The notes beneath the pieces are model-generated. The model searched no databases. It worked only from the letters and a program-made list of their open reading frames with translations, and was not told the DNA's origin. The translations under genes were made by a program, and so were the position numbers. 64,000 bases of DNA from Metridium senile (lineage: Eukaryota > Cnidaria > Anthozoa > Actiniaria > Metridiidae). Below, in pieces: positions 4,487 to 63,985 of the stretch. The stretch covers positions 6,606,394-6,670,393 of the forward strand of contig OX459101.1 of the NCBI GenBank assembly GCA_949775045.1, written 5' to 3'. The first letter of the stretch is position 1. Every line of letters begins with the position of its first letter.

Positions 4487-7400
4487 TTATTTGACAACAG
4501 CAATGATTTGTTTCTTTCGTTCTGGTTTGTAAGGTACACTTCCAGGTTTGCTGTGAAGTCGACGGTTCTCCTCTCTGATAAAAGAAACATTGTTTATTAC
4601 CAACTGTCAAAGTTCATTTTTCTCGCACTTTGATTGGGCGAGAGGGTATCACGTGAACGTGAATAAATTTGGATGTTTCTGCAGCAACGACTCTCAGCGG
4701 GCAACAATATGTTATTTACAGGTAAATAACAAAACCTTAGTTTATGAAGGTCATGTTTAGAATAAAAATCATTAGTCATAGCTACGTTTTTGTTGTTCTT
4801 TGATAGTTGGTATATAACAAAACACTTAAAGACTGAAAACTTGGTAAAACAGTATGTTTTGTGGTCCCGAGACCGCCGATGTTTCCCTCGGCGGTTTCGG
4901 GACCACAATTCCCCCGGTCCCAGTCAATAAGTGATAATTATGTCATTCTAATCAGCGCAAAAAAAATCCAAACCCATCTCAATACTGCAGTTTCATGTTA
5001 TCTAGCACTGCCATACTTTTGAGAAAATGTGTATTTCAATAGGCTAAGCCTTGATTTGTAGTAAAAATATTCACAAAGCACTGTGCGACAAGTGAATAGA
5101 GTTTGTTAGATGTGTTTTTCTATCTCATGCCACGAGGGTTTTTCTACGGGTTATCCGGTTTTCCTCCCTCCGCAAAAATCAACATGTGAGCAGAGTTGTG
5201 TGTTGTAAATATGGAATGTAGTGGTGGCGAGTGTGAGCGAACCTCACGGAAGAGCCCTGACAGGGATAGCCTCCTATGCAGCCGCTCCTTTGTATCGTCA
5301 CGCAATACGAGTCTCCCCACGTGGGGAGACTCGTATTGCGTGACGATACAAAGGAGCGGCTGCATAGGAGGCTATGACAGGGAGTGATGGTTGTAAATAT
5401 ACGTTAAAAAAATATTATAGCTAAACATTAATATGAAACATATTTAAATTTACTATGAATCAAACTTACAGAGATACCAGACAATGCGAGCCTGGAGAAT
5501 TTGAGGTGTAGTATTTAGCAAAGATATCAAGGAGAAAAACGCGATATTTGGGCACTTACTTTCGTTTTTCTGATTCTGTCATGACTCTCTTTTCGATAGC
5601 TGCTTTATACACAGCTCTTGGTACATGACGATGTCTGTTGGAAAAATTAAGTGATAATGATTATAGTAGCTGTTCTTATTTCAGTGCCATCTTGTTTTGT
5701 CTCTTGAAAAATTTAATTGTAGAGACATTTGTGCTTTCAATACAGTTGACTTTGTCTGAACAACGACTTTCGTAAGGGACCATTATTTCCTGTCAGTTTA
5801 GTTTTCCATATAAATTATGTAATAAATCTCTCTCCGCTTTCGTAAGCGACCACAACCACCTTAAGGATTCAAGTTTTGGACTTTTTCATTGTATTTTTCT
5901 TTTCTCCTAAGCAACTATCTAGAGTCATAAGACTGCTGACTTTTGGAAAACATGGTTTTGGCTTCATGTGATAGGGTTCTTGTCATTTGGGTTTCCTATG
6001 TTAAGGTTCTTCGGTAAGCGACCGCGTTCTTCTGTTCCGAGGGTGGCTTACGACAGAGTCAACTGTACTTCCTTCATTTTTTTCAAAGTTTACACACTTT
6101 TCTTTAGCATATATTTGATATAATTAATTCATAACTCACCTTTGAATACGCCTTATCTTGGGATGATGCTTGAAGCGTTCTCTTAGTTTTGTAGAATATG
6201 CAAATGCTGCCTTCTCTCTGTGTGCTAGCTACAATGTAAAAACAATAAAAAAGCTCAGCAAATTAAATTATCTAATGAAGTTAATACAATAAATTTGAGG
6301 ATATTATGATTACCGAGTACCAGGAGATACAGTGGAACCCGCCTTAGTTATTGCGGACAGTTTTTTAGGTCCCAACGAAATGCATTCCCATACATTTTCT
6401 ATAAAATTTACCCGCTTAATATGGCCACCCCGTTAACACGGCCACTTTGGGCTGTCCCTTAGGTGGCCGGATTAACGGGGTTCCACTGTACTTAATTTTA
6501 TAAAAATATTGTTATACTACTACTTCTACTACTAATCATAATAATATTTTACAACATATCCACATATTGCCTCTTCTTCTGCTGGCACTCACACTCACTA
6601 CCTCTACATTAAATATTGTTTTAAAAATCACTCCTTGTATTTTTCTGGGGGAGGAAAAGCCAGAATACCCGGAGGAAAAAAAATGTGGCATGGTAGAGAA
6701 CAACACATCAAACAAACTCAATTCAAATAAAGGCCCAAGCAAATGGCTTCAACATTTGCTTCAATGTTCGATTTTGTTGAACGCTGTAGAATGGTTGTTG
6801 AACGCTGTTGAAAAAAGCTTGCAAACGGTTTCAACAATGTTGAAATGGGGTGGCAAATAGCTTCAACATTGCCATTCAACAAAATTGAACGGATGTTGAA
6901 GCAAATGTTGAAGCCGTTTGCCCAGGCCTTTATATGCTGGGACTCAGATCACTGCAGTGAAAGGCAAGTGCTCTCACCACTCCCACCAATCATGCCACCA
7001 ACAATGCCATTCCTTTTTTTTAAATTTAAGTTATATTTTCATTCTAGTTCCAGATATTAATTAATAATATAATACATATAATATATGGAAAATGAGTTAT
7101 TGTTATTTTTGACTTTGGTCAAAATACTGCAAAAATATCTTAACAACTATGTCAACTTACTGCACCCAGTTTCTGTGATGCATTAGCTTTCCATATCCTG
7201 AAAAATAACAACAGATAAATTATAATTACTTTAGTTAATACTTTTGGTTTTGGTATAGACATTTTAATAATTAAAATTATGAACAAATTGGCTAGCTCCT
7301 CCTCCGTGTACCGGACACAGTCTACGTAATAGAAACACAAAAGACTCAAAGCTAAACAATAGAACCAATATAAATGGAAACTAGCGAGTGAACTAGTGTA

Positions 7401-10400
7401 GGTTGCGTTGGTGTTTTATTAACAGGTAATATAATGAAATTTGTAACTCCATAAAAAATGTTTACTTTACTGACGTTTCGAGCTTAAGCCCTTTGTCGGA
7501 GTTAAAAAAAGCATAAGTTCGAAACGTTAGTAAAGTTAAGTAAACATTTTTACGGTGTTACAAATTTCATTATATTACCTATCAATAGAACAAAGCTATC
7601 AAAGAATACAATAGGTTTCCAGTACTGTAATGTATGTTAATGTATGCTAATTTATGCATCACGTGACTAGATACCTCGTGTAAGAATTATTACTTCAACA
7701 AAGACACAGTTCGCACTTACAGAACTTGTTGTGTAGTTTCTTTATTTAATACTTGTACACAGTACAATACATGACATGGTGTCAGAATAATGGAGCATTT
7801 CAAAAGCATTGGACCTCTTAGTCTCGAAGGCAATGTGTCAGAAAACTGGCGTCGATGGATTCAACGATGGAGACTCTATGTCGTTGCTAGCGGAGCAGAC
7901 AAAAAACCCAAAGCAACGCAATGTGCGATATTTCTACACACCATAGGCCAAGATGCCATTGAAGTATACAATACTTTCGTCTTCACAGAAGCACAATCTA
8001 ACAAAATCGATCATCTCATTCAGAAATTCGAGGAGCACTGCGCCTGGAAGAAAAATCTCACATTCGAGAGATACAAATTCAACACATGTGTCCAAGATGG
8101 CCGACCGTTTGACTCGTTTCTCGTTGATCTTGTCAATAAGTCGAAAACATGTGAGTTTGGTGAGCTAAAAAACTCACTCATCAAAGACAGGATCGTCTGT
8201 GGAATCGACAACAGAGAGTTGAGAGAAAGACTTCTCAGAGATACGAAGTTAACAATGGATAAAGCGATTGAATTCATGCGAGCGGCGGAGACGAGCAAAA
8301 CACACGCTAAAAGTCTAAACGAAAGTCAGCTAGAAGCATCTGCAATCAGCAAATCCAATAGTAAATCCTTCAAAAAATCAAACCCCTCAAGTACTACTAG
8401 TACAACAAAGCCACGAATTAAAGCTGATCGACAAGATCAAAAACCAACGACAAAGCCATGCAAGCGATGTACAACAAAACACGAAGTAAATAAGTGCCCA
8501 GCATACGGCAAAACGTGTTTCAAATGCCAAGGCAAAAACCACTTCGCAAATTGTTGCTTCACGAAAGATTCATCAAAAGTACACACGGTGACACAAGATG
8601 AGACTTTATTCATTGGAGAAATCCAAGATGAGAACTCTGAAAACTCTAATGAATTGTTTGTAAATCTCAAGATAAACGGGACTGACATTCAGTTCAAAGT
8701 CGACACTGGTGCACAGTGCAATGTCATTTCTCTAAACAAAATCAATGAACTTGACAACTCAACACAGATCACTTCAACACCAGCCAAATTAACCGCGTAT
8801 GGAGGTGGAAATATTCCAATTAAAGGCAAATGTAAAATGGAAATCAACCACAAAGAAAACAAAGTCAAAGCTGATTTTTACATCGTGGATAAACCTGGTA
8901 TCAAACCTATCATTGGCCTACCTACACTACAGGAATTGAAGTTAATCTCCTTCAATAATTTACATGAAATCAACAAAGATCACGACATTCTTGACAGCTA
9001 CTCAGATGTATTCACTGGACTAGGTCTAGTCGATGGTGAATATCACATTGAATTAAAGGAAAACGTCACACCTGTGATTCATGCTTCAAGAAAAATTCCT
9101 CTAAGCCTACTTCCAAAGTTAAAAGAAACACTTGACAACCTTGAAAGTTCAGGCGTTGTAAGCAAAGTTGAGAAGCCCACAGACTGGGTGAATAGCCTCG
9201 TCATCGTAGAAAAGAAAGATGGATCGTTGCGACTTTGTTTAGATCCAAAGGATCTAAATAAAGCTATCAAGAGAGAATACTACAGTTCTCCAACAATCGA
9301 AGCCATATCTAGCAACTTAAGCGGCAAGAAAATATTCACAGTCATTGACATGAGCAACTGCTACTGGCACAAGAAGCTCGACGAAGAATCTTCCTTATTA
9401 TATACATACAACACCCCCTATGGTCGCTACAAGTTCAACCGCCTGCCCTTTGGTGTATGTTGTGCATCAGATGTAGCCCAAAGGATGGTAGATGAGCACT
9501 TCTCTGACGTACAAGGAGCATTAGCAGTCTACGACGACATCATAATATCAGGAAGAATATTAGAAGAACACGACAAAGCCCTTAAGCGAGTGTTAGAAAG
9601 AGCAAGAGAAAGAAACATCAAGTTTAACAAAGATAAAGTTCAACTCAGAACCTCACAAGTTAAATACCTGGGCCACATCATAACCTCAGATGGTTTCCAA
9701 CCAGACCCAGCAAAGATTCAAGCTATCACTGATATTGCAAAGCCAACCTGTAAAGAAGACCTGCAAAGATTGCTTGGAATGGTTAATTATCTTTCACAGT
9801 ATATTCCCAATGTTTCTGAAGTACTCGCTCCACTACGAGCCCTACTCCGACAAGATGTAGAATGGTCATGGTTACCCAATCATGACAACGCCCTTGACAA
9901 AGTCAAGCAAATCCTCTCAAGTAGTCCAGTACTACGGTTTTACGATGTCAACAAAGACATCACACTACAAGTTGACACCTCTAAGAACGGCTTAGGAGCA
10001 TGTCTTTTACAAGAAGGACACCCAGTGATATACGCATCTCGTTCACTTACACAGGCCAAGCAAAACTATGCCCAAATAGAAAAGGAACTCCTTGCTATAG
10101 TGTTTGGATGCGAACGATTCAACCAGTTCACATATGGCAAACACATAACAGTGCACAGCGACCATAAACCACTAGAATCCATTGTAAAGAAACCTCTTTC
10201 AATGACTCCACCAAGAGTTCAGCGATTACTCTTACGTTTACAGAAATATCAACCAGTAGTCACTTATGTTCCAGGAAAGTACCTGTACATTGCTGATACA
10301 TTATCAAGAGCCCCACTTAAGTCTACAGACAGTGACAACGACCTCAATGAAGATATAGAAGTAATGGTACACAGCTTTGTAAAGAATGTACATGCATCAG

Positions 10401-13400
10401 ATGAACAACTAGCACAGCTAAGACAACAAACTAAGGATGACATAACACTACAACAGATTAGCAGGCTCATCAGAGAAGGATGGCCAGCACATGTAAAGCA
10501 AACACCCGTTATAGCACGCCCATACTGGAGTGTGAGAAATAATCTACATGAAGCGGATGGCATGATATTCAAAGACGAATGCATTGTTATACCTAAGATT
10601 TCAAGAGCGGAAATGCTAAAGTTAGTACATCAAGGACACTTTGGCATTGCAAAAACAAAAGCCAGAGCAAGGCAAGTACTGTTTTGGCCAGGTATGTCAA
10701 ATGAAATTGAGCAACTTGGATTCCATGCTATTGTGTTGGAACGCATTGCCATGACTAGCTTACGTAGTGGAGCTGAGCCTCTTGTGTCGTACAGGACAAC
10801 ACTACGATCCGATGCTGTGCTGGCGAGTATATTTGTCTAGTTGGATTAATAGTAACGATTAATGTTATGTTCCAGGAAAGTACCTGTACATTGCTGATAC
10901 ATTATCAAGAGCCCCACTTAAGTCTACAGACAGTGACAACGACCTCAATGAAGATATAGAAGTAATGGTACACAGCTTTGTAAAGAATGTACATGCATCA
11001 GATGAACAACTAGCACAGCTAAGACAACAAACTAAGGATGACATAACACTACAACAGATTAACAGGCTCATCAGAGAAGGATGGCCAGCACATGTAAAGC
11101 AAACACCCATTATAGCACGCCCATACTGGAGTGTGAGAAATAATCTACATGAAGCGGATGGCATGATATTCAAAGACGAATGCATTGTTATACCTAAGAT
11201 TTCAAGAGCGGAAATGCTAAAGTTAGTACATCAAGGACACTTTGGCATTGCAAAAACAAAAGCCAGAGCAAGGCAAGTACTGTTTTGGCCAGGTATGTCA
11301 AATGAAATTGAGCAACTTGGATTCCATGCTATTGTGTTGGAACGCATTGCCATGACTAGCTTACGTAGTGGAGCTGAGCCTCTTGTGTCGTACAGGACAA
11401 CACTACGATCCGATGCTGTGCTGGCGAGTATATTTGATTAGTTGGATTAATAGTAACGATTAATGTTATGTTCCAGGAAAGTACCTGTACATTGCTGATA
11501 CATTATCAAGAGCCCCACTTAAGTCTACAGACAGTGACAACGACCTCAATGAAGATATAGAAGTAATGGTACACAGCTTTGTAAAGAATGTACATGCATC
11601 AGATGAACAACTAGCACAGCTAAGACAACAAACTAAGGATGACATAACACTACAACAGATTAGCAGGCTCATCAGAGAAGGATGGCCAGCACATGTAAAG
11701 CAAACACCCGTTATAGCACGCCCATACTGGAGTGTGAGAAATAATCTACATGAAGCGGATGGCATGATATTCAAAGACGAATGCATTGTTATACCTAAGA
11801 TTTCAAGAGCGGAAATGCTAAAGTTAGTACATCAAGGACACTTTGGCATTGCAAAAACAAAAGCCAGAGCAAGGCAAGTACTGTTTTGGCCAGGTATGTC
11901 AAATGAAATTGAGCAACTAATAGCCAAATGTGACATGTGCAACACCTACAGGAGAAGGAATCACAAGGAACCCCTGTTGCAGCACCCGATACCTGACCGA
12001 CCATGGCAAAGAATTGCATCAGATATCTTCGAGTATCAAGGTAAATCATATTTACTTGTTGTTGACTACTACTCTAAGTACATTGAGACAAGTCTTATCA
12101 AAGACAAAACAGCATCAACTATTATCACACATATGAAATCAATGTTTGCCCGACATGGCATTCCAGAGGAACTTATGTCTGATAATATGCCATATAACAG
12201 CACAGAGTTTAGGAACTTTGCCAACGAATGGCAATTCAAACTCACCACATCTAGCCCGACCTATCCTCAGTCAAATGGGTTGAGTGAAAAGGCAGTCCAA
12301 ACTGTAAAGAGGATCCTAAAGAAATCAAATGACCCATATTTAGGACTTCTTGAATACAGAAACACACCAGTAACAGGTATGGATTACACACCAACACAAC
12401 TGTTAATGGGTCGAGTTGCAAGAACGAACATTCCGATCTCTCCCAAATTATTGTATCCAAAGATTGTTACAGATGCACTTGATCAGTTAAGAAATTGTCA
12501 AGAAAGGCAGAAATTCTTCTATGACAAGCAAGCAAAGAAACTTCCAGTTCTTAACGAGAATGACACTGTACGCATCGAAAGAAACAAGAAATGGATTCCC
12601 GCAATAGTTACAGCCAAAGCGCAAACCCCGAGATCATTCATTGTGACCACACCCAATGGTCAGGCATATCGCCGAAATAGACGACATCTCATAAAGACTA
12701 GTGAAGACCCACCTGAGATAACTGGACCAATACCAGACCTACCTAATGAAGTTGGACCTGAAGTCAACATTGACAGACCAACTCAAATGCTACCCTTACC
12801 ACATGATGATGGAAGCAGTGAACCTGATCCTACACTCAGAAGATCATCAAGAATCAGAGGACAACCAGCATGGTTTAAAGACTATCACATGTAACACTTC
12901 ATAGACATTATAAGGATTGTTAAAACGTTGTATTCAAAACTTTATATTGAGTTATTTGAAACATTAACTTTATTCCTAAAAGAAGGGAGATGTAATGTAT
13001 GTTAATGTATGCTAATTTATGCATCACGTGACTAGATACCTCGTGTAAGAATTATTACTTCAACAAAGACACAGTTCGCACTTACAGAACTTGTTGTGTA
13101 GTTTCTTTATTTAATACTTGTACACAGTACAATACATGACAAGTACAAAATGGAGGAGCCCCAATGCCAATAATCAAAAGTCGAGGCAAGTGTTATTAGC
13201 CAAGACCAGAGGACGATACTATATACATATTTCTGTACATTGTTTGCTTATGATGAACATATAGATCCAAAAACTTAGTGTATAGTCCTCTTCTACCAAT
13301 AAAGTAGAGATTTCACTATAGCATTTAGCAATTAAGCCTGGTTCACACTAGCGACATAAGCATAGGCAACATACACAGGCTCAGTTAGGCTTTGCTCATT

Positions 13401-16400
13401 AGCCGCACTTGTCTTTTCTCACACCTAGTCCAGAAATGCTTCACTGAGTCTGCATATGTTGCTTATGCTTATTTCACCGATGTGGGTTCCCGAGGATGAT
13501 TTCACCGATGTGTACGAGGCTTTAGTATTTAGCAATTAAGTTGTTATACCTGATGTTTGTTTCGTCACTGCCTGACAATACAAATGTAGAATCTGCACTG
13601 AACTTTACACAAAACACTCTCTGCATACGCTTTGTATGGTACACCTCCCTGATCAAGACAAAATACATTTATAGTTCATAATAGTAGTTGTTGGTCCTCA
13701 ACCTTTTAATGTTTTTTCCAGCTGAGTTGATATAGGTATTCTATAGGTATTATGGGTCACTATTTTTGAGCATTTTCCAAGTATACAATGTAGACTTTTC
13801 TTGTTGATTGAATTATAATCCCACCATGAGTTTGACTAGCGTTTACAACTAATTTAAAGAAGGAAGAACTCGTATTTCATAAATTCCCTTGGCAGAATTA
13901 TGGGAAATGCGATGTTGAATTCTCAATTCTGATTGGTTGACCTTGTGTTTGTTCTGAAGGTCAACTCAGCTGGATTATTATGAATCAAAATCCAACCTAC
14001 AAACATTTGTTACATTTATAGTTTTATAGTAGAAAAAGAAGGCGAGGGTAAGGAAAGGAGAACAAAAGAAAGAGGATGAGAAGAAGGGAAAGCAGAAAAC
14101 AAGAAAGAAGAGGAGGGGAAGGAGGAGAAGAAGAAGGAGAGTAAGATGGAGAATAAGGCAAAGAAGAAAATGATATGAACAAGAAAAAACAATCTCAAAC
14201 ATACTAACCTACTGCGGCCACTATCACGTTGAAATATCCTAATAGTTTTATCAAAACTACCAGACACAAACTCTTGACCAGTCGGTGCATAATCAACATC
14301 CAACACTGCCATTACATGGTCCATATGTACATTTATTGCCTGATCCATCCGCCGCATATCATAGGTATATAGATTAGAATCCTCATTGGCTACTGTAAAG
14401 ATAAATGCTTCCATTGGATTCCATGCTATTGTGTTGGAACGCATTGCCATGACTAGCTTACGTAGTGGAGCTGAGCCTCTTGTGTCGTACAGGACAACAC
14501 TACGATCCGATGCTGTGCTGGCGAGTATATTTGTCTAGTTGGATTAATAGTAACGATTAATTCTTCCATTTATGTATTGTGCATAAGATCATATCCACAT
14601 CTATTTGGCGCATTATAAGTACCGGTATTAAAATCATTATCATTATTATAATGTAATTAGGCCAATCAAAGCAAAAACAATACAGAAACAATTGGAGTAG
14701 GTAAGGTACATGTATATTTTCATTTAGAAAACATTGCTTTAAAAATACTACAGATTGGTTGAAATCCAATTGTATATACTCGCCGTTCGGTAGATATTCA
14801 CTGATAACACTTTGCCTTTGGCGAATAATTGTTAACTATCACTCAACTGGAACAGCTTTAAGTAACAATGCACAATGAATAAAGTATTAACTTTCTATGG
14901 TCTTGAGTAGTTGGTTTCCCTTGTGTATTGTTACTAAAGCTGTTCCAGTTGAGTGATAGTGACTAATAGTCACTAAATAAAAACTATTAGTTAGTAACTA
15001 TTTAGATTTTATTTCATGGACATAGTGTAAGCACTCTAGATAACACCCTCCTTGCTTTGCATAAATCTTATATCATACTTAGTCTCATTCAATAATTGCT
15101 CATAATTGTCATTTTATGATAACATGTTTTTTTTGCTCACCTCGACTGGGTTGAATTTAACACTATGCACAGTATCTACACCCCAAGTAAATGTACGAAC
15201 AGGGTCAGCCCTTGTGTCATCCCATATATCTAATTGCTGACCAGACGTAGCAAAGGTGGAGTCTTTCCAGCTGTGATCTATTCCAGTAAGCATCGTCTGT
15301 TGAGGACATGAACAGAACATCACTAAATATTATCATCATTCTTGTTATCAGTATCATTATTTTGGGGTGGCATGGGTGGCATGGTGGTTAACTGCGCACC
15401 TCTCACTGCTGTGGTCCAGGTTTGAGTCTTGACTCGGGCATGGATTATATGCGAGTTGAGTTTGTTTGACGTGTTATTCTCTCCTATGCCATGAGGGTTT
15501 TTCTCCGGGTTATTTGGCTTTCCTCCCTCCACAAAAATGAACATATGAGCAGAGTTGTGTGTTAAAATATTTAACATAGAGGTAGTGAGTGTGAGTGTGA
15601 GTCTCCACAATTAGCAACTGGCTAAATACATTGAGACATTAAAAAAGTGATTTATTATTATTATTTTTTATTATTATCAATGATTAGTATAAATACATAA
15701 GTGATTATGGAAAATTGTGCGCAGTGATTGGTCTAGAACTTTACACTTTTAGAAATAAGAAAGGAACAGTTTTTCTTCCAAAAAGCTGGGTATTTTCATT
15801 TTTTGAAATAATCACTTTTGTATTTATACTAAAACAATTATCCACCTCAGGCTCAATGAATATCAGTGAATAATAACCATGACTCTGTCTCGGTTTTTAT
15901 TCACCAATATTCACTTCTTCAATATTCACTTTTAATTTTTTTTTTGGTAAAAAAAGTACAATGGTCCACCCCTTATTTTACCTTAGCCACAATAGTATTT
16001 AATGGTTCATTAGTTGTACCACCTAATGTTTCCTCCATACTCCATGTCTTGACTACTTTATCATCACCAACCTAACAACAAAACAAGTTTACTTACTGAC
16101 ATTCTCACTACTTGGCCACCCTTCTTTCCCATTTCAAACAATTGAATTTAATGTGATCTTGAAAGTACAAATATTTACCCAGTGGATTGAGCAAGGAATC
16201 AAAGAAGAAACCAAACAAGGAAGCAAGGAAGAAAAGAAGCAAGGAAGAAAAAAAGCAAGGAAGAATGCAAAGAAGCAAAGGAGGGAGGGAGGGGGTAATT
16301 TAAAACATGTTTTATTGAGTCCCTCACTATATCACTGCAGTTTTATAACCATCAATATGTACATTGTACTTACTGAATATAATAAATCTCCCTTGGGGGC

Positions 16401-41412: not shown

Positions 41413-42385
41413 AGCTAATCCACTAGTCAAATTGGAGTTTGGCTATTATTGACAAAGAGATTTACAACCAAACTAGTGCTAAACGTTTTGTTTGACCAAG
41501 CAGTTTGAGTGAACTTCGTGAATCTTGAGCTAACAATAGCACCGTTGCCATGGAAGCGCTAGTTTAATTTGGCAAGCGCGCGCATTGAAAGAACTGCTAA
41601 TTATTTCTTGGAATTTTCAAATTATTTCAAGTATTTCCTTGTGTTTGTCTATTCTTAGTCATCACATTTAGTCAAAATACTCCTCAACTTGATGCCTTCT
41701 TAAATTAAGCGCACTGCTTTAATTTGCATTTTATATAAACAACTGACTTATAGAATTTTTGGCGAAAATTTGAATACTGTATATGGCACGATCTAATAAA
41801 ATCGATAAAACTGAATTTTAATTTTCCACAAATTATAAGCCAAATGAATTTAGAAAGAAAGTATAAGAGAAACAATTCCGTTGGAGGTGCTGATTAGCAA
41901 TATTTTGTGGTCAAGCAAATTAGTTTAATTGGGAAAGAAGCCTGACAATAGTTTCGTCTTTGCATGAATGAAGTTGCTTTGTTGGTTTTGTAGTTTAAGC
42001 CAGCAAAACAAATATTAACAAAGAAGTACAGGTTTAATTAGTGTAAAAATTTGTAAGCTAAGTGTTGGAGAGAAATAAGTTAACCTTTTTTACACCACGT
42101 TCAAATAAAAAAAAAAACAAGTTTCGCAGGTCGAAAGTTTGGTTACCTGGCCCAGAGGTTAGCGACGATAACCGCGGCTAAGAGAATCACAGGAAAAACA
42201 AAAGAAAACCTCTGGGGCCAGGGTAAAGCTCAGTCGGTAAAACATATTACTTATTTTCAATAGAATATTAAGTTATTCAGTTTGTATTGGTTGATAAAAA
42301 ATTTAATATTTTAAGGATGAATCCCTGAATTCCGATAACTTTAGATTTGTCTCCCGTTCGATCATAGCATATCTTTTTGAATCTG
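41413..42385. other. 5' flank of the carboxypeptidase gene
   Basis: Presumed promoter and 5' UTR side, AT-rich, no other gene seen. An inverted pair ACCTGGCCCAGAGGTT / AACCTCTGGGGCCAGGGT (42144-42230) is the only structure noted. Confidence 0.5.
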
Positions 42386-42880
42386 CAGCTTTTGATTGGC
42401 CTTCGTTCCTGCCAGGCACGTATCTGGACAGTTTTCAATGCGCAGCTTTTGATTGGCCTTCGATCCTGCCAGGCACGTATCTGGACAGTTTTCAAGGCGC
42501 AGCTTTTGATTGGCCTTCGTTCCTGCCAGGCACGTATCTGGACAGTTTTCAACGCGCAGCTTTTGATTGGCCTTCGATCGTGCCAGGCACGTATCTGGAC
42601 AGTTTTCAATGCGCAGCTTTTGATTGGCTTTCGTTCCTGCCAGGCACGTATCTGGACAGTTTTCAATGCGCAGCTTTTGATTGGCCTTCGTTCCTGCCAG
42701 GCACGTATCTGGACAGTTTTCAATGCGCAACTTTTGATTGGCCTTCGTTCCTGCCAGGCACGTATCTGGACAGTTTTCAATGCGCAGCTTTTGATTGGCC
42801 TTCGATCCTGCCAGGCACGTATCTGGACAGTTTTCAATTGAAGCTTTTGATTAGCCTTCGATCCTGCCAGGCAAGTTTTC
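42386..42880. repeat. 57-bp tandem repeat, about 8.5 units
   Basis: The unit contains CAGCTTTTGATTGGCCTTCG, TCCTGCCAGGCACGTATCTG and GACAGTTTTCAATGCG. Because 57 is a multiple of three and the unit lacks stops in several frames, long open frames arise on both strands. These are not taken as genes. Confidence 0.93.
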
Positions 42881-59284: not shown

Positions 59285-62200
59285 ACTACGATTTATCACC
59301 ACCACCACCATCATCATTAGGTACCGTCATCATCATTACCACCACCATCATCATCAATAGGTACCATTGTATCACCATCACCATCATTACCACCAACATC
59401 ATCATCAATAGGTACCATTGTTATCATCATCATCATCATTACCACCACCATCATCATCAATAGGTACCATTGTTATCACCATCATCATCATTACCACCAC
59501 CATCATCATCAATAGGTACCATTGTATCACCATCACCATCATTACCACCAACATCATCATCAATAGGTACCATTGTTATCACCATCATCATCATTACCAC
59601 CACCATCATCATCAATAGGTACCATTGTATCACCATCATTACCACCAACATCATCAATAGGTACCATCGTTATCACCATCATCATTACCACCACCATCAT
59701 CATCAATAGGTACCATTGTATCACCATCATTACCACCAACATCATCAATAGGTACCATCGTTATCACCATCATCATTATCATCATTACCACCACCACCAT
59801 CATCATCAATAGGTACCATCGTTATCACCATCATCATTAGGTTCCATCATCATCATTACCACCACCACCATCATCATCAATAGGTACCATCGTTATCACC
59901 ATCATCATTAGGTACCATCATCATCATTACAACCACCACCATCATCATCAATAGGTACCATCGTTATCACCATCATCATTAGGTACCATCATCATCATTA
60001 CCACCACCACCATCATCAATAGGTACCATTGTTATCACCATCATCATCATTACCACCACCATCATCATCAATAGGTACCATTGTTATCACCATCATCATC
60101 ATTACCACCACCATCATCATCAATAGGTACCATTGTTATCACCATCATCATTATCATCATTACCACCACCATCATCATCAATAGGTACCATTGTTATCAC
60201 CATCATCATCATTACCACCACCATCATCATCAATAGGTACCATTGTTATCACCATCATCATTATCATCATTACCACCACCATCATCATCAATAGGTACCA
60301 TTGTTATCACCATCATCATTATCACCACCATCATCATCAATAGGTACCATTGTTATCACCATCATCATCATTACCACCACCATCATCATCAATAGGTACC
60401 ATTGTATCACCATCACCATCATTACCACCAACATCATCAATAGGTACCATCGTTATCACCATCATCATTACCACCACCATCATCATCAATAGGTACCATT
60501 GTATCACCATCATTACCACCAACATCATCAATAGGTACCATCGTTATCACCATCATCATTATCATCATTACCACCACCATCATCATCAATAGGTACCATT
60601 GTTATCACCATCATCATCATTACCACCACCATCATCATCAATAGGTACCATTGTTATCATCATCATCATCATTACCACCACCATCATCATCAATAGGTAC
60701 CATTGTTATCACCATCATCATTACCACCACCATCATCATCAATAGGTACCATTGTTATCACCATCATCATCATTACCACCACCATCATCATCAATAGGTA
60801 CCATTGTTATCACCATCATCATCATTACCACCACCATCATCATCAATAGGTACCATTGTTATCATCATCATCATCATTACCACCACCATCATCATCAATA
60901 GGTACCATCGTTATCACCATCATCATTAGGTTCCATCATCATCATTACCACCACCACCATCATCATCAATAGGTACGATCGTTATCACCATCATCATTAG
61001 GTACCATCATCATCATTACAACCACCACCATCATCATCAATAGGTACCATCGTTATCACCATCATCATTAGGTACCATCATCATCATTACCACCACCACC
61101 ATCATCAATAGGTACCATTGTTATCACCATCATCATCATTACCACCACCATCATCATCAATAGGTACCATTGTTATCACCATCATCATTATCACCACCAT
61201 CATCATCAATAGGTACCATTGTTATCACCATCATCATCATTACCACCACCATCATCATCAATAGGTACCATTGTTATCACCATCATCATTACCACCACCA
61301 TCATCATCAATAGGTACCAAATGTTGTTATCACCATCATCATCATTACTACCACCATCATCATCAATAGGTACCATTGTTATCACCATCATCATCATTAC
61401 CACCACCATCATCATCAATAGGTACCATTGTTATCATCATCATCATCATTACCACCACCATCATCATCAATAGGTACCATTGTTATCACCATCATCATTA
61501 CCACCACCATCATCATCAATAGGTACCATTGTTATCACCATCATCATCATTACCACCACCATCATCATCAATAGGTACCATTGTTATCATCATCATCATC
61601 ATTACCACCACCATCATCATCAATAGGTACCATCGTTATCACCATCATCATTAGGTTCCATCATCATCATTACCACCACCACCATCATCATCAATAGGTA
61701 CGATCGTTATCACCATCATCATTAGGTACCATCATCATCATTACAACCACCACCATCATCATCAATAGGTACCATCGTTATCACCATCATCATTAGGTAC
61801 CATCATCATCATTACCACCACCACCATCATCAATAGGTACCATTGTTATCATCATCATCATCATTACCACCACCATCATCATCAATAGGTACCATTGTTA
61901 TCACCATCATCATTACCACCACCATCATCATCAATAGGTACCATTGTTATCACCATCATCATCATTACCACCACCATCATCATCAATAGGTACCATTGTT
62001 ATCACCATCATCATTACCACCACCATCATCATCAATAGGTACCAAATGTTGTTATCACCATCATCATTACCACCACCATCATCATCAATAGGTACCATTG
62101 TTATCACCATCATCATCATTACCACCACCATCATCATCAATAGGTACCATTGTTATCATCATCATCATCATTACCACCACCATCATCATCAATAGGTACC

Positions 62201-63985
62201 ATTGTTATCACCATCATCATCATTACCACCACCATCATCATCAATAGGTACCATTGTTATCATCATCATCATCATTACCACCACCATCATCATCAATAGG
62301 TACCAAATGTTGTTATCACCATCATCATCATTACTACCACCATCATCATCAATAGGTACCATTGTTATCACCATCATCATCATTACCACCACCACCATCA
62401 TCAATAGGTACCATTGTTATCACCATCATCATCATTACCACCACCATCATCATCAATAGGTACCATTGTTATCACCATCATCATCATCATTACCACCACC
62501 ACCATCATCAATAGGTACCATTGTTATCACCATCATCATCATTACCACCACCATCATCATCAATAGGTACCATTATTATCACCATCATCATCATTACCAC
62601 CACCATCATCATCAATAGGTACCATTGTTATCATCATCATCATCATTACTACCACCATCATCATCAATAGGTACCATTGTTATCACCATCATCATCATTA
62701 CCACCACCATCATCATCAATAGGTACCATCGTTATTACCATCATCATTATCATCATTACCACCACCATCATCATCAATAGGTACCATTGTTATCACCATC
62801 ATCATCATTACCACCACCATCATCATCAATAGGTACCATTGTTATCACCATCATCATCATTACCACCACCATCATCATCAATAGGTACCATTGTTATCAC
62901 CATCATCATCATTACCACCACCATCATCATCAATAGGTACCATTGTTATCACCATCATCATCATTACCACCACCATCATCATCAATAGGTACCATTGTTA
63001 TCATCATCATCATCATTACCACCACCATCATCATCAATAGGTACCAAATGTTGTTATCACCATCATCATCATTACCACCACCATCATCATCAATAGGTAC
63101 CATTGTTATCACCATCATCATCATTACCACCACCACCATCATCAATAGGTACCATTGTTATCACCATCATCATCATTACCACCACCATCATCATCAATAG
63201 GTACCATTGTTATCACCATCATCATCATTACCACCACCATCATCATCAATAGGTACCATTGTTATCACCATCATCATTACCACCACCATCATCATCAATA
63301 GGTACCATTGTTATCACCATCATCATCATTACCACCACCATCATCATCAATAGGTACCATTGTTATCACCATCATCATCATTACCACCACCATCATCATC
63401 AATAGGTACCATTGTTATCACCATCATCATCATTACCACCACCATCATCATCAATAGGTACCATTGTTATCACCATCATCATCATTACTACCACCATCAT
63501 CATCAATAGGTACCATTGTTATCACCATCATCATCATTACCACCACCACCATCATCAATAGGTACCATTGTTATCATCATCATCATCATTAACACCACCA
63601 TCATCATCAATAGGTACCATTGTTATCACCATCATCATCATTACCACCACCATCATCATCAATAGGTACCATTATTATCACCATCATCATCATTACCACC
63701 ACCATCATCATCAATAGGTACCATTGTTATCATCATCATCATCATTACTACCACCATCATCATCAATAGGTACCATTGTTATCACCATCATCATCATTAC
63801 CACCACCATCATCATCAATAGGTACCATCGTTATTACCATCATCATTATCATCATTACCACCACCATCATCATCAATAGGTACCATTGTTATCACCATCA
63901 TCATTATCACCACCATCATCATCAATAGGTACCATCGTTATCACCATAATCATTATCATCATTACCACCACCATCATCATCAATG
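59285..63985. repeat. Minisatellite of more than 4.6 kb with higher-order structure
   Basis: About ninety units of roughly 45-57 bp, each carrying CATCATCATCAATAGGTACC followed by ATTGTTATCACC and CATTACCACCACC. Variants include ATCGTTATCACC, TTGTATCACC, AAATGTTGTTATCACC and ATTAGGTTCC. The strand is strongly biased: G occurs almost only in AGGTACC and TTG. Variant units recur as blocks (near 59815, 60905 and 61630), so longer stretches were duplicated together. Poly-His, Ser/Pro and Met/Asp frames come from the repeat and are not genes. Confidence 0.95.

Follow-up and report, generated by a model that had tools for sequence, protein, structure and literature searches.

Introduction

Host or foreign sequence inside long terminal repeat (LTR) retrotransposons has been blamed on errors of reverse transcription, and the maize element Bs1 is said to have captured its host sequence while being reverse transcribed. 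One plant review makes abnormal template switching during reverse transcription responsible for the foreign sequence that LTR elements carry (PMC13317346). Here we describe a stretch of 64,000 nucleotides from the sea anemone Metridium senile (GenBank assembly GCA_949775045.1, contig OX459101.1, 6,606,394 to 6,670,393; hereafter the window, whose positions are used throughout) in which an LTR retrotransposon sits in an intron of the gene DCAF13 and carries two pieces of exon 5 of that gene within its own pol, a case that points instead to patching of a resident element from its host gene. As in Bs1 and the Triticeae complexes (PMC1950507), foreign sequence lies within an LTR element; those captures arise before insertion, whereas here the intron sequence in the copied piece, the locus and the comparison of family members point to an origin after insertion.

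Several described rearrangements resemble this locus in part. In human class 2 templated insertions (TSIPs; PMC5110952) a patch is likewise copied from elsewhere, lacks a poly(A) tract or a target duplication of the long interspersed element (LINE) type, and is joined with microhomology or none and with non-templated bases. TSIPs are described as coming from distant regions, whereas the source of the patch in Metridium is 3 kb off and within the same gene; this locus differs from TSIPs further in that the patch adjoins a duplication of 453 bp of the recipient and in that the whole unit occurs twice. The single-copy Pack-TIRs of animals, made by gap filling (PMC8277862), are likewise resident elements into which host sequence was copied without transposition, its source often being only a few kb distant; unlike those, the element here is an LTR retrotransposon and so offers no excision gap to fill. 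Tandem duplications from Pol theta end joining in C. elegans (PMC7368036) share with this locus the head-to-tail arrangement and the added sequence at the joint. A head-to-tail duplication with a copied nearby piece at its joint is what the window holds (A-D-A-D-A, donor 14415-14561, defined below). Tandem duplications whose joints hold templated or filler sequence are reportedly described in the 2014 rice survey of Vaughn and Bennetzen. The piece inserted here is longer than the insertions generally known from such joints. A literature search returned no published account of a DCAF13 exon duplication tied to a retrotransposon, and none of an internal tandem in a Gypsy element made by unequal crossing over. 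Each step of the rearrangement is already known in kind; less usual is its host, an LTR element, and it differs from the captures put down to reverse transcription in its timing after insertion and its source in cis.

An array of pol and DCAF13 sequence

The pol gene reads A-D-A-D-A, where A is 453 bp of pol and D is a 147-bp piece of DCAF13 (148 bp with a shared T), the copies of A being spaced 601 bp apart. All five parts were placed on the plus strand by comparing sequences and aligning copies. A1 (10264..10716) extends from beyond the RNase H region into the H2C2 domain identified with Pfam, which is interrupted by D1 (10717..10863), a copy of 120 nt of exon 5 and 27 nt of intron 4 that is antisense to the element and sense to DCAF13. 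After an extra G at 10864 follow A2 (10865..11317), D2, the second DCAF13 piece (11318..11464), a further extra G at 11465 and A3 (11466..11918), which runs on into the remaining integrase, as protein and genome relatives also indicate. A1 and A3 are identical; A2 differs from them by two G to A changes (11062 and 11109). D1 agrees with the donor at 14414-14561 in 148/148 bases including the one shared T, by which a chance match to exon 5 was ruled out, and D2 departs from the donor by a single adjacent double change, TC to AT at 11437-11438. The A|D joins (10716/10717 and 11317/11318) share one T, the D|A joins share 0 bp and have one added G each, and the breakpoints are the same in both A-D units, extra G included.

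The donor stretch 14415-14561 consists of 120 nt of exon 5 (14415-14534) and 27 nt of intron 4 (14535-14561). It lies about 3.1-3.7 kb from the array in the same gene, and D keeps its chromosomal orientation. A preliminary description of this DNA had reported a 601-bp unit present twice (453 bp of pol with 147 bp of 14415-14561) and a third, partial copy leading into integrase, which proved exact to the base. The donor it had named was confirmed by alignment, structure matches and tblastn, and the junctions of 0-1 shared bp and one extra G were found as it gave them, alike in both units. Its placing of the element inside the donor's own gene also held, and can now be made specific: the intron is intron 6, so that exon 6 (13549-13650) stands between donor and element.

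The array has disrupted pol. The frame entering from the 5' side stops at 10838-10840, within D1, and since this stop lies ahead of the integrase core the present copy cannot make its own full pol. The integrase zinc-binding domain is broken by D1, with profile positions 1-44 of 59 remaining in the piece that ends at A1. The copied splice acceptor is kept in D1 and destroyed in D2 (AG to AA on the minus strand).

Comparison with family members and protein relatives

We searched the genome to which the window belongs (389,276,800 bases in 169 contigs); the search scores the best candidates only, and repeat counts are lower bounds. With A1-D1 as query there were at least 11 matches, namely the three A places in the window, the donor, five other full A copies (L004-L008) and two short diverged pieces. 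In all five of these copies A is joined unbroken to pol on both sides. The pol stretch upstream (8800-10263) is matched in full in four of them and, in L008, from position 557 of the stretch onwards; the piece downstream is matched in every copy, with a gap in L005, L006 and L008. Neither D nor a second A was found in their fetched loci (0/5), where the remaining matches of 11-21 bases (E 0.19 or worse) are those of chance. Queried alone against the genome, D was found in three places, the donor, D1 and D2, all on contig C7, and this search gave no second haplotype of the array locus.

The bases of A themselves are informative. Four of them (10407A, 10540T, 10591A and 10633A) are common to A1, A2 and A3 and occur in none of the five other copies (alignment of three plus five sequences), so that each of the three derives from this element and the duplication took place at this site. 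The two changes of A2 are private, the other five copies having G at both sites. Copying of A2 from another family member was ruled out by the four markers together with these private changes. Besides, two of the other copies, L007 and L008, have insertions of 8 and 9 bases in A at one spot (after window position 10304), the letters of which differ. L008 (C3:14369521-14372871) has an internal deletion: about 3.2 kb separate its LTRs, and it lacks the upstream part of the pol stretch used for comparison.

Of 35 protein relatives six were compared, three across the natural borders of A and three where coverage passed A. One relative (P0001) crosses from A into integrase without a break and two others cross from RNase H into A. 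In the three with coverage beyond A the extra residues are weakly aligned and are the proteins' own continuation, apparently with no copied exon.

Origin of the array

We consider it probable that a local rearrangement of DNA in two steps, taking place after insertion, built A-D-A-D-A from the element's own pol and the neighbouring exon 5. In the first step a break or a stalled fork in pol would have been mended with a 147-bp patch copied from the nearby exon, and the join would have duplicated 453 bp of pol around the patch, turning A into A-D-A; the joining would have used 0-1 bp of homology and added a single base. In the second step the two A copies would have exchanged unequally or slipped against each other, which gave another A-D unit with the same junctions. 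The outcome would be the structure now seen, a pol that stops in D1 before the integrase core and additional exon 5 pieces in intron 6, with an intact acceptor in D1 only. An origin in place and at the level of DNA is supported by the intron sequence in D, by the locus, by the comparison of family members and by the marker bases. As the breakpoints are the same in both units, a single origin followed by unequal exchange fits better than two separate switches; for the same reason no second switch is needed to explain the doubling, for which exchange between the 453-bp repeats suffices.

The preliminary description had favoured replication-based template switching after insertion. Its placing of the event after insertion and in DNA is strongly supported, with no chimera in any of the five other copies, whereas the specifically replicative path is not singled out, because joins of 0-1 bp with an added base fit patched break repair as well. 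Patched break repair shows such joins with added bases (PMC5110952). Replication models are essentially alike by their breakpoints and predict templated extra sequence where end joining predicts random filler (PMC4056370).

Several points weigh against the two-step rearrangement. The evidence is one assembled sequence, of one haplotype of one individual. Words shared within 15 nt of the joins reach 5 and 6 bases, no more than random pairs of places give (P about 0.51 and 0.17), and are thus no sign that microhomology was used. The differences between copies, three in number, all fall in unit 2; by length the chance of this is about 0.04 for unit 2 in particular and 0.11 for one unit or another, from which nothing firm follows. 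A patch of 147 bp is long for Pol theta. Finally, the human insertions in PMC5110952 are derived there from RNA, and an RNA patch is conceivable here too.

Among the alternatives, the one that survives best is a single replicative event, in which a polymerase loops through A-D-A-D-A (fork stalling and template switching or microhomology-mediated break-induced replication, FoSTeS/MMBIR) or a small circle of A and D is replicated or dimerised and then recombined into A. The donor is close by and in the same orientation, the joins are near-blunt, and templated extra sequence is what replication models predict (PMC4056370); among animal Pack-TIR captures, too, 160 (56.9%) lie within 15 kb of their source, most of these at less than 5 kb (PMC8277862). 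We nevertheless regard it as unlikely, since two independent rounds of switching should not hit both breakpoints and the added G exactly again, and the circle form requires more steps.

A chimera made in the library or the assembly, named by the preliminary description as the main alternative, is in our estimate improbable. The array is known from the assembly alone, D was found on C7 only, and the search gave no second haplotype of the locus, all of which would suit an artefact. For such a chimera, however, A would have to be joined to D and D to A, both in identical form twice, and unit 2 carries substitutions of its own. Composite tandems were looked for (95% identity, 80 bp) in a small control of 26 ten-kb stretches, 20 of contig C1 and six of the window; one stretch was positive, the array itself, against 0/20 of C1 and 0/5 of the other window stretches.

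Reverse transcriptase could also have switched templates on a read-through transcript of the element (from 13142 to beyond 14561), the complementary DNA (cDNA) then returning to the same locus by homologous recombination. The orientation of D is that which such a transcript would give, and non-templated bases can arise at switches of reverse transcriptase. Fusions of two elements by template switching have moreover been proposed in Triticeae (PMC1950507). This explanation is nonetheless very improbable: new cDNA normally inserts elsewhere and D is in none of the five other copies, while sense pre-mRNA of DCAF13 as first-strand template should give the opposite orientation. Capture by retroviral-type transduction or by template switching of reverse transcriptase would be expected to leave the captured piece in other inserted copies or away from its source, but D was found at the donor, D1 and D2 only and in 0/5 other copies; a piece captured from mature mRNA would be spliced, but D includes 27 nt of intron 4. 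It is hardly credible that the chimera predates insertion and that the element then happened to land in the very gene from which D came, with nothing found in its favour, D in no other copy found as far as the genome searches reach, and a chance, negligible as we reckon it, of hitting a place less than 4 kb from the source in a genome of 389 Mb. Recurrence of the chimera at unrelated loci, the finding by which the preliminary description would have given up an origin at this site, was sought in the genome and seen in none of the five other full A copies found.

Consequences of a proposed capture in place

As the source, the family copies and the junctions can all be read in one genome, the locus offers a clean, small example for counting how often the capture of genes starts in this manner. 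The effect on DCAF13 itself is probably slight, judging from a longer intron with one intact extra acceptor. More widely, we suggest only tentatively that animal LTR retrotransposons can gain pieces of host genes in place and without reverse transcription, a neighbouring exon serving as template in DNA repair or in replication switching. On this reading the element would be a capture seen at its very start. Its LTRs and a presumed primer site after the 5' LTR remain, so that other family members could in principle still act on it in trans, making copies that take exon 5 elsewhere; the transcript of the element would include two stretches of 120 nt that are antisense to the mRNA of DCAF13.

The element and its host gene

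The element spans 7626-13141 in intron 6, antisense to DCAF13. Its 5' LTR (7626..7776) and 3' LTR (12991..13141), both on the plus strand, are each 151 bp with ends TG...CA and are identical (0/151 differences). A 5-bp target-site duplication, AGTAC, stands on both flanks (7621..7625 on the left, repeated at 13142..13146 on the right), and together with the identical LTRs it indicates an ordinary insertion. Between the LTRs, on the plus strand, a single frame open into D1 (7790..10715, from open frame 7775-10840 and Pfam by pieces) covers the presumed gag, then protease, reverse transcriptase and RNase H, and lastly the first part of the integrase zinc-binding domain; the integrase core and pol end follow at 11919..12894 (Pfam rve in 11920-12891, frame 11464-12894). 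Pfam by pieces gave RVT_1, RT_RNaseH, Integrase_H2C2 and rve, which is the Gypsy order, and the element appears to be of Ty3/Gypsy type, a call made on domain order. Protease matches were under the Pfam cut-off, and in the same search no Pfam family was matched for gag. Scans of the window with Rfam (at gathering scores) and for tRNA gave no matches.

DCAF13 is encoded on the minus strand. Its exon 5, the donor (14206..14534, from structure matches and tblastn, the low end read from splice-site sequence), matches human DCAF13 of known structure (7mq8_LU, residues 210-317, E 3.6e-46), as well as yeast Sof1 (5wlc_LU, E 1.2e-40). The many-repeat WD40 chain 2ymu_A was discarded as best match of this exon, as its top rank came only from summed weak stretches. 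Coding pieces were ordered by tblastn with the human protein as query, and they occur in order at 17387-17088, 16484-16371, 16071-15961, 15299-15141, 14534-14202, 13650-13549, 7208-7155, 6228-6139, 5636-5559 and 4576-4490, some of the short ones being weak singly yet in order. Seven out-of-order matches (E 4.6-9.0) and two within the array were set aside. Exon 6 (13549..13650, minus strand, E 4e-11) separates the donor exon from the element, on the far side of which lies exon 7 (7155..7208, minus strand, E 0.027, weak alone but in order). Past the last coding piece of DCAF13, an open frame matching the CLN3 family occupies 1901-2749 on the plus strand (Pfam 54.1 bits, cut-off 31).

Age and distribution of the family

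In the four other copies with both neighbouring LTRs the mismatches were 1, 0 and 0 of 151 and 0 of 150, one end base of the last lying outside the match. For the fifth copy the genome LTR search placed the upstream LTR at C3:14372721-14372871. The family is young, 151 bases being too few for close dating. One LTR pair, L013/L014, may not belong to a single element, its pairing being doubtful because the downstream LTR precedes sequence normally found after a 5' LTR. In L014 (C10:6809600-6810100) the downstream LTR is followed by the same TGGTGTCAGA as after 5' LTRs, as if a second element shared the LTR in tandem.

Family LTRs also recur at a spacing of 13.3-13.5 kb on C13 (16460278, 16473572, 16486950), C6 (59767, 73149) and C142 (48404, 61906). 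Single ones lie no more than about 102 kb from where C5, C10 and C14 start and no more than 58 kb from where C3 ends, and several of the recurring LTRs are near contig ends. A solo LTR of the family may be carried along inside a tandem unit that is large and perhaps subtelomeric.

Other repeats in the window

Two further tandem repeats were noted in the window. A satellite of 52/104-bp units with strong GC skew fills its last 4.7 kb (59323-63984), and a 57-bp unit is repeated 8.6 times with 95% matches at 42385-42873, its length being a multiple of three and the repeat open in several frames.

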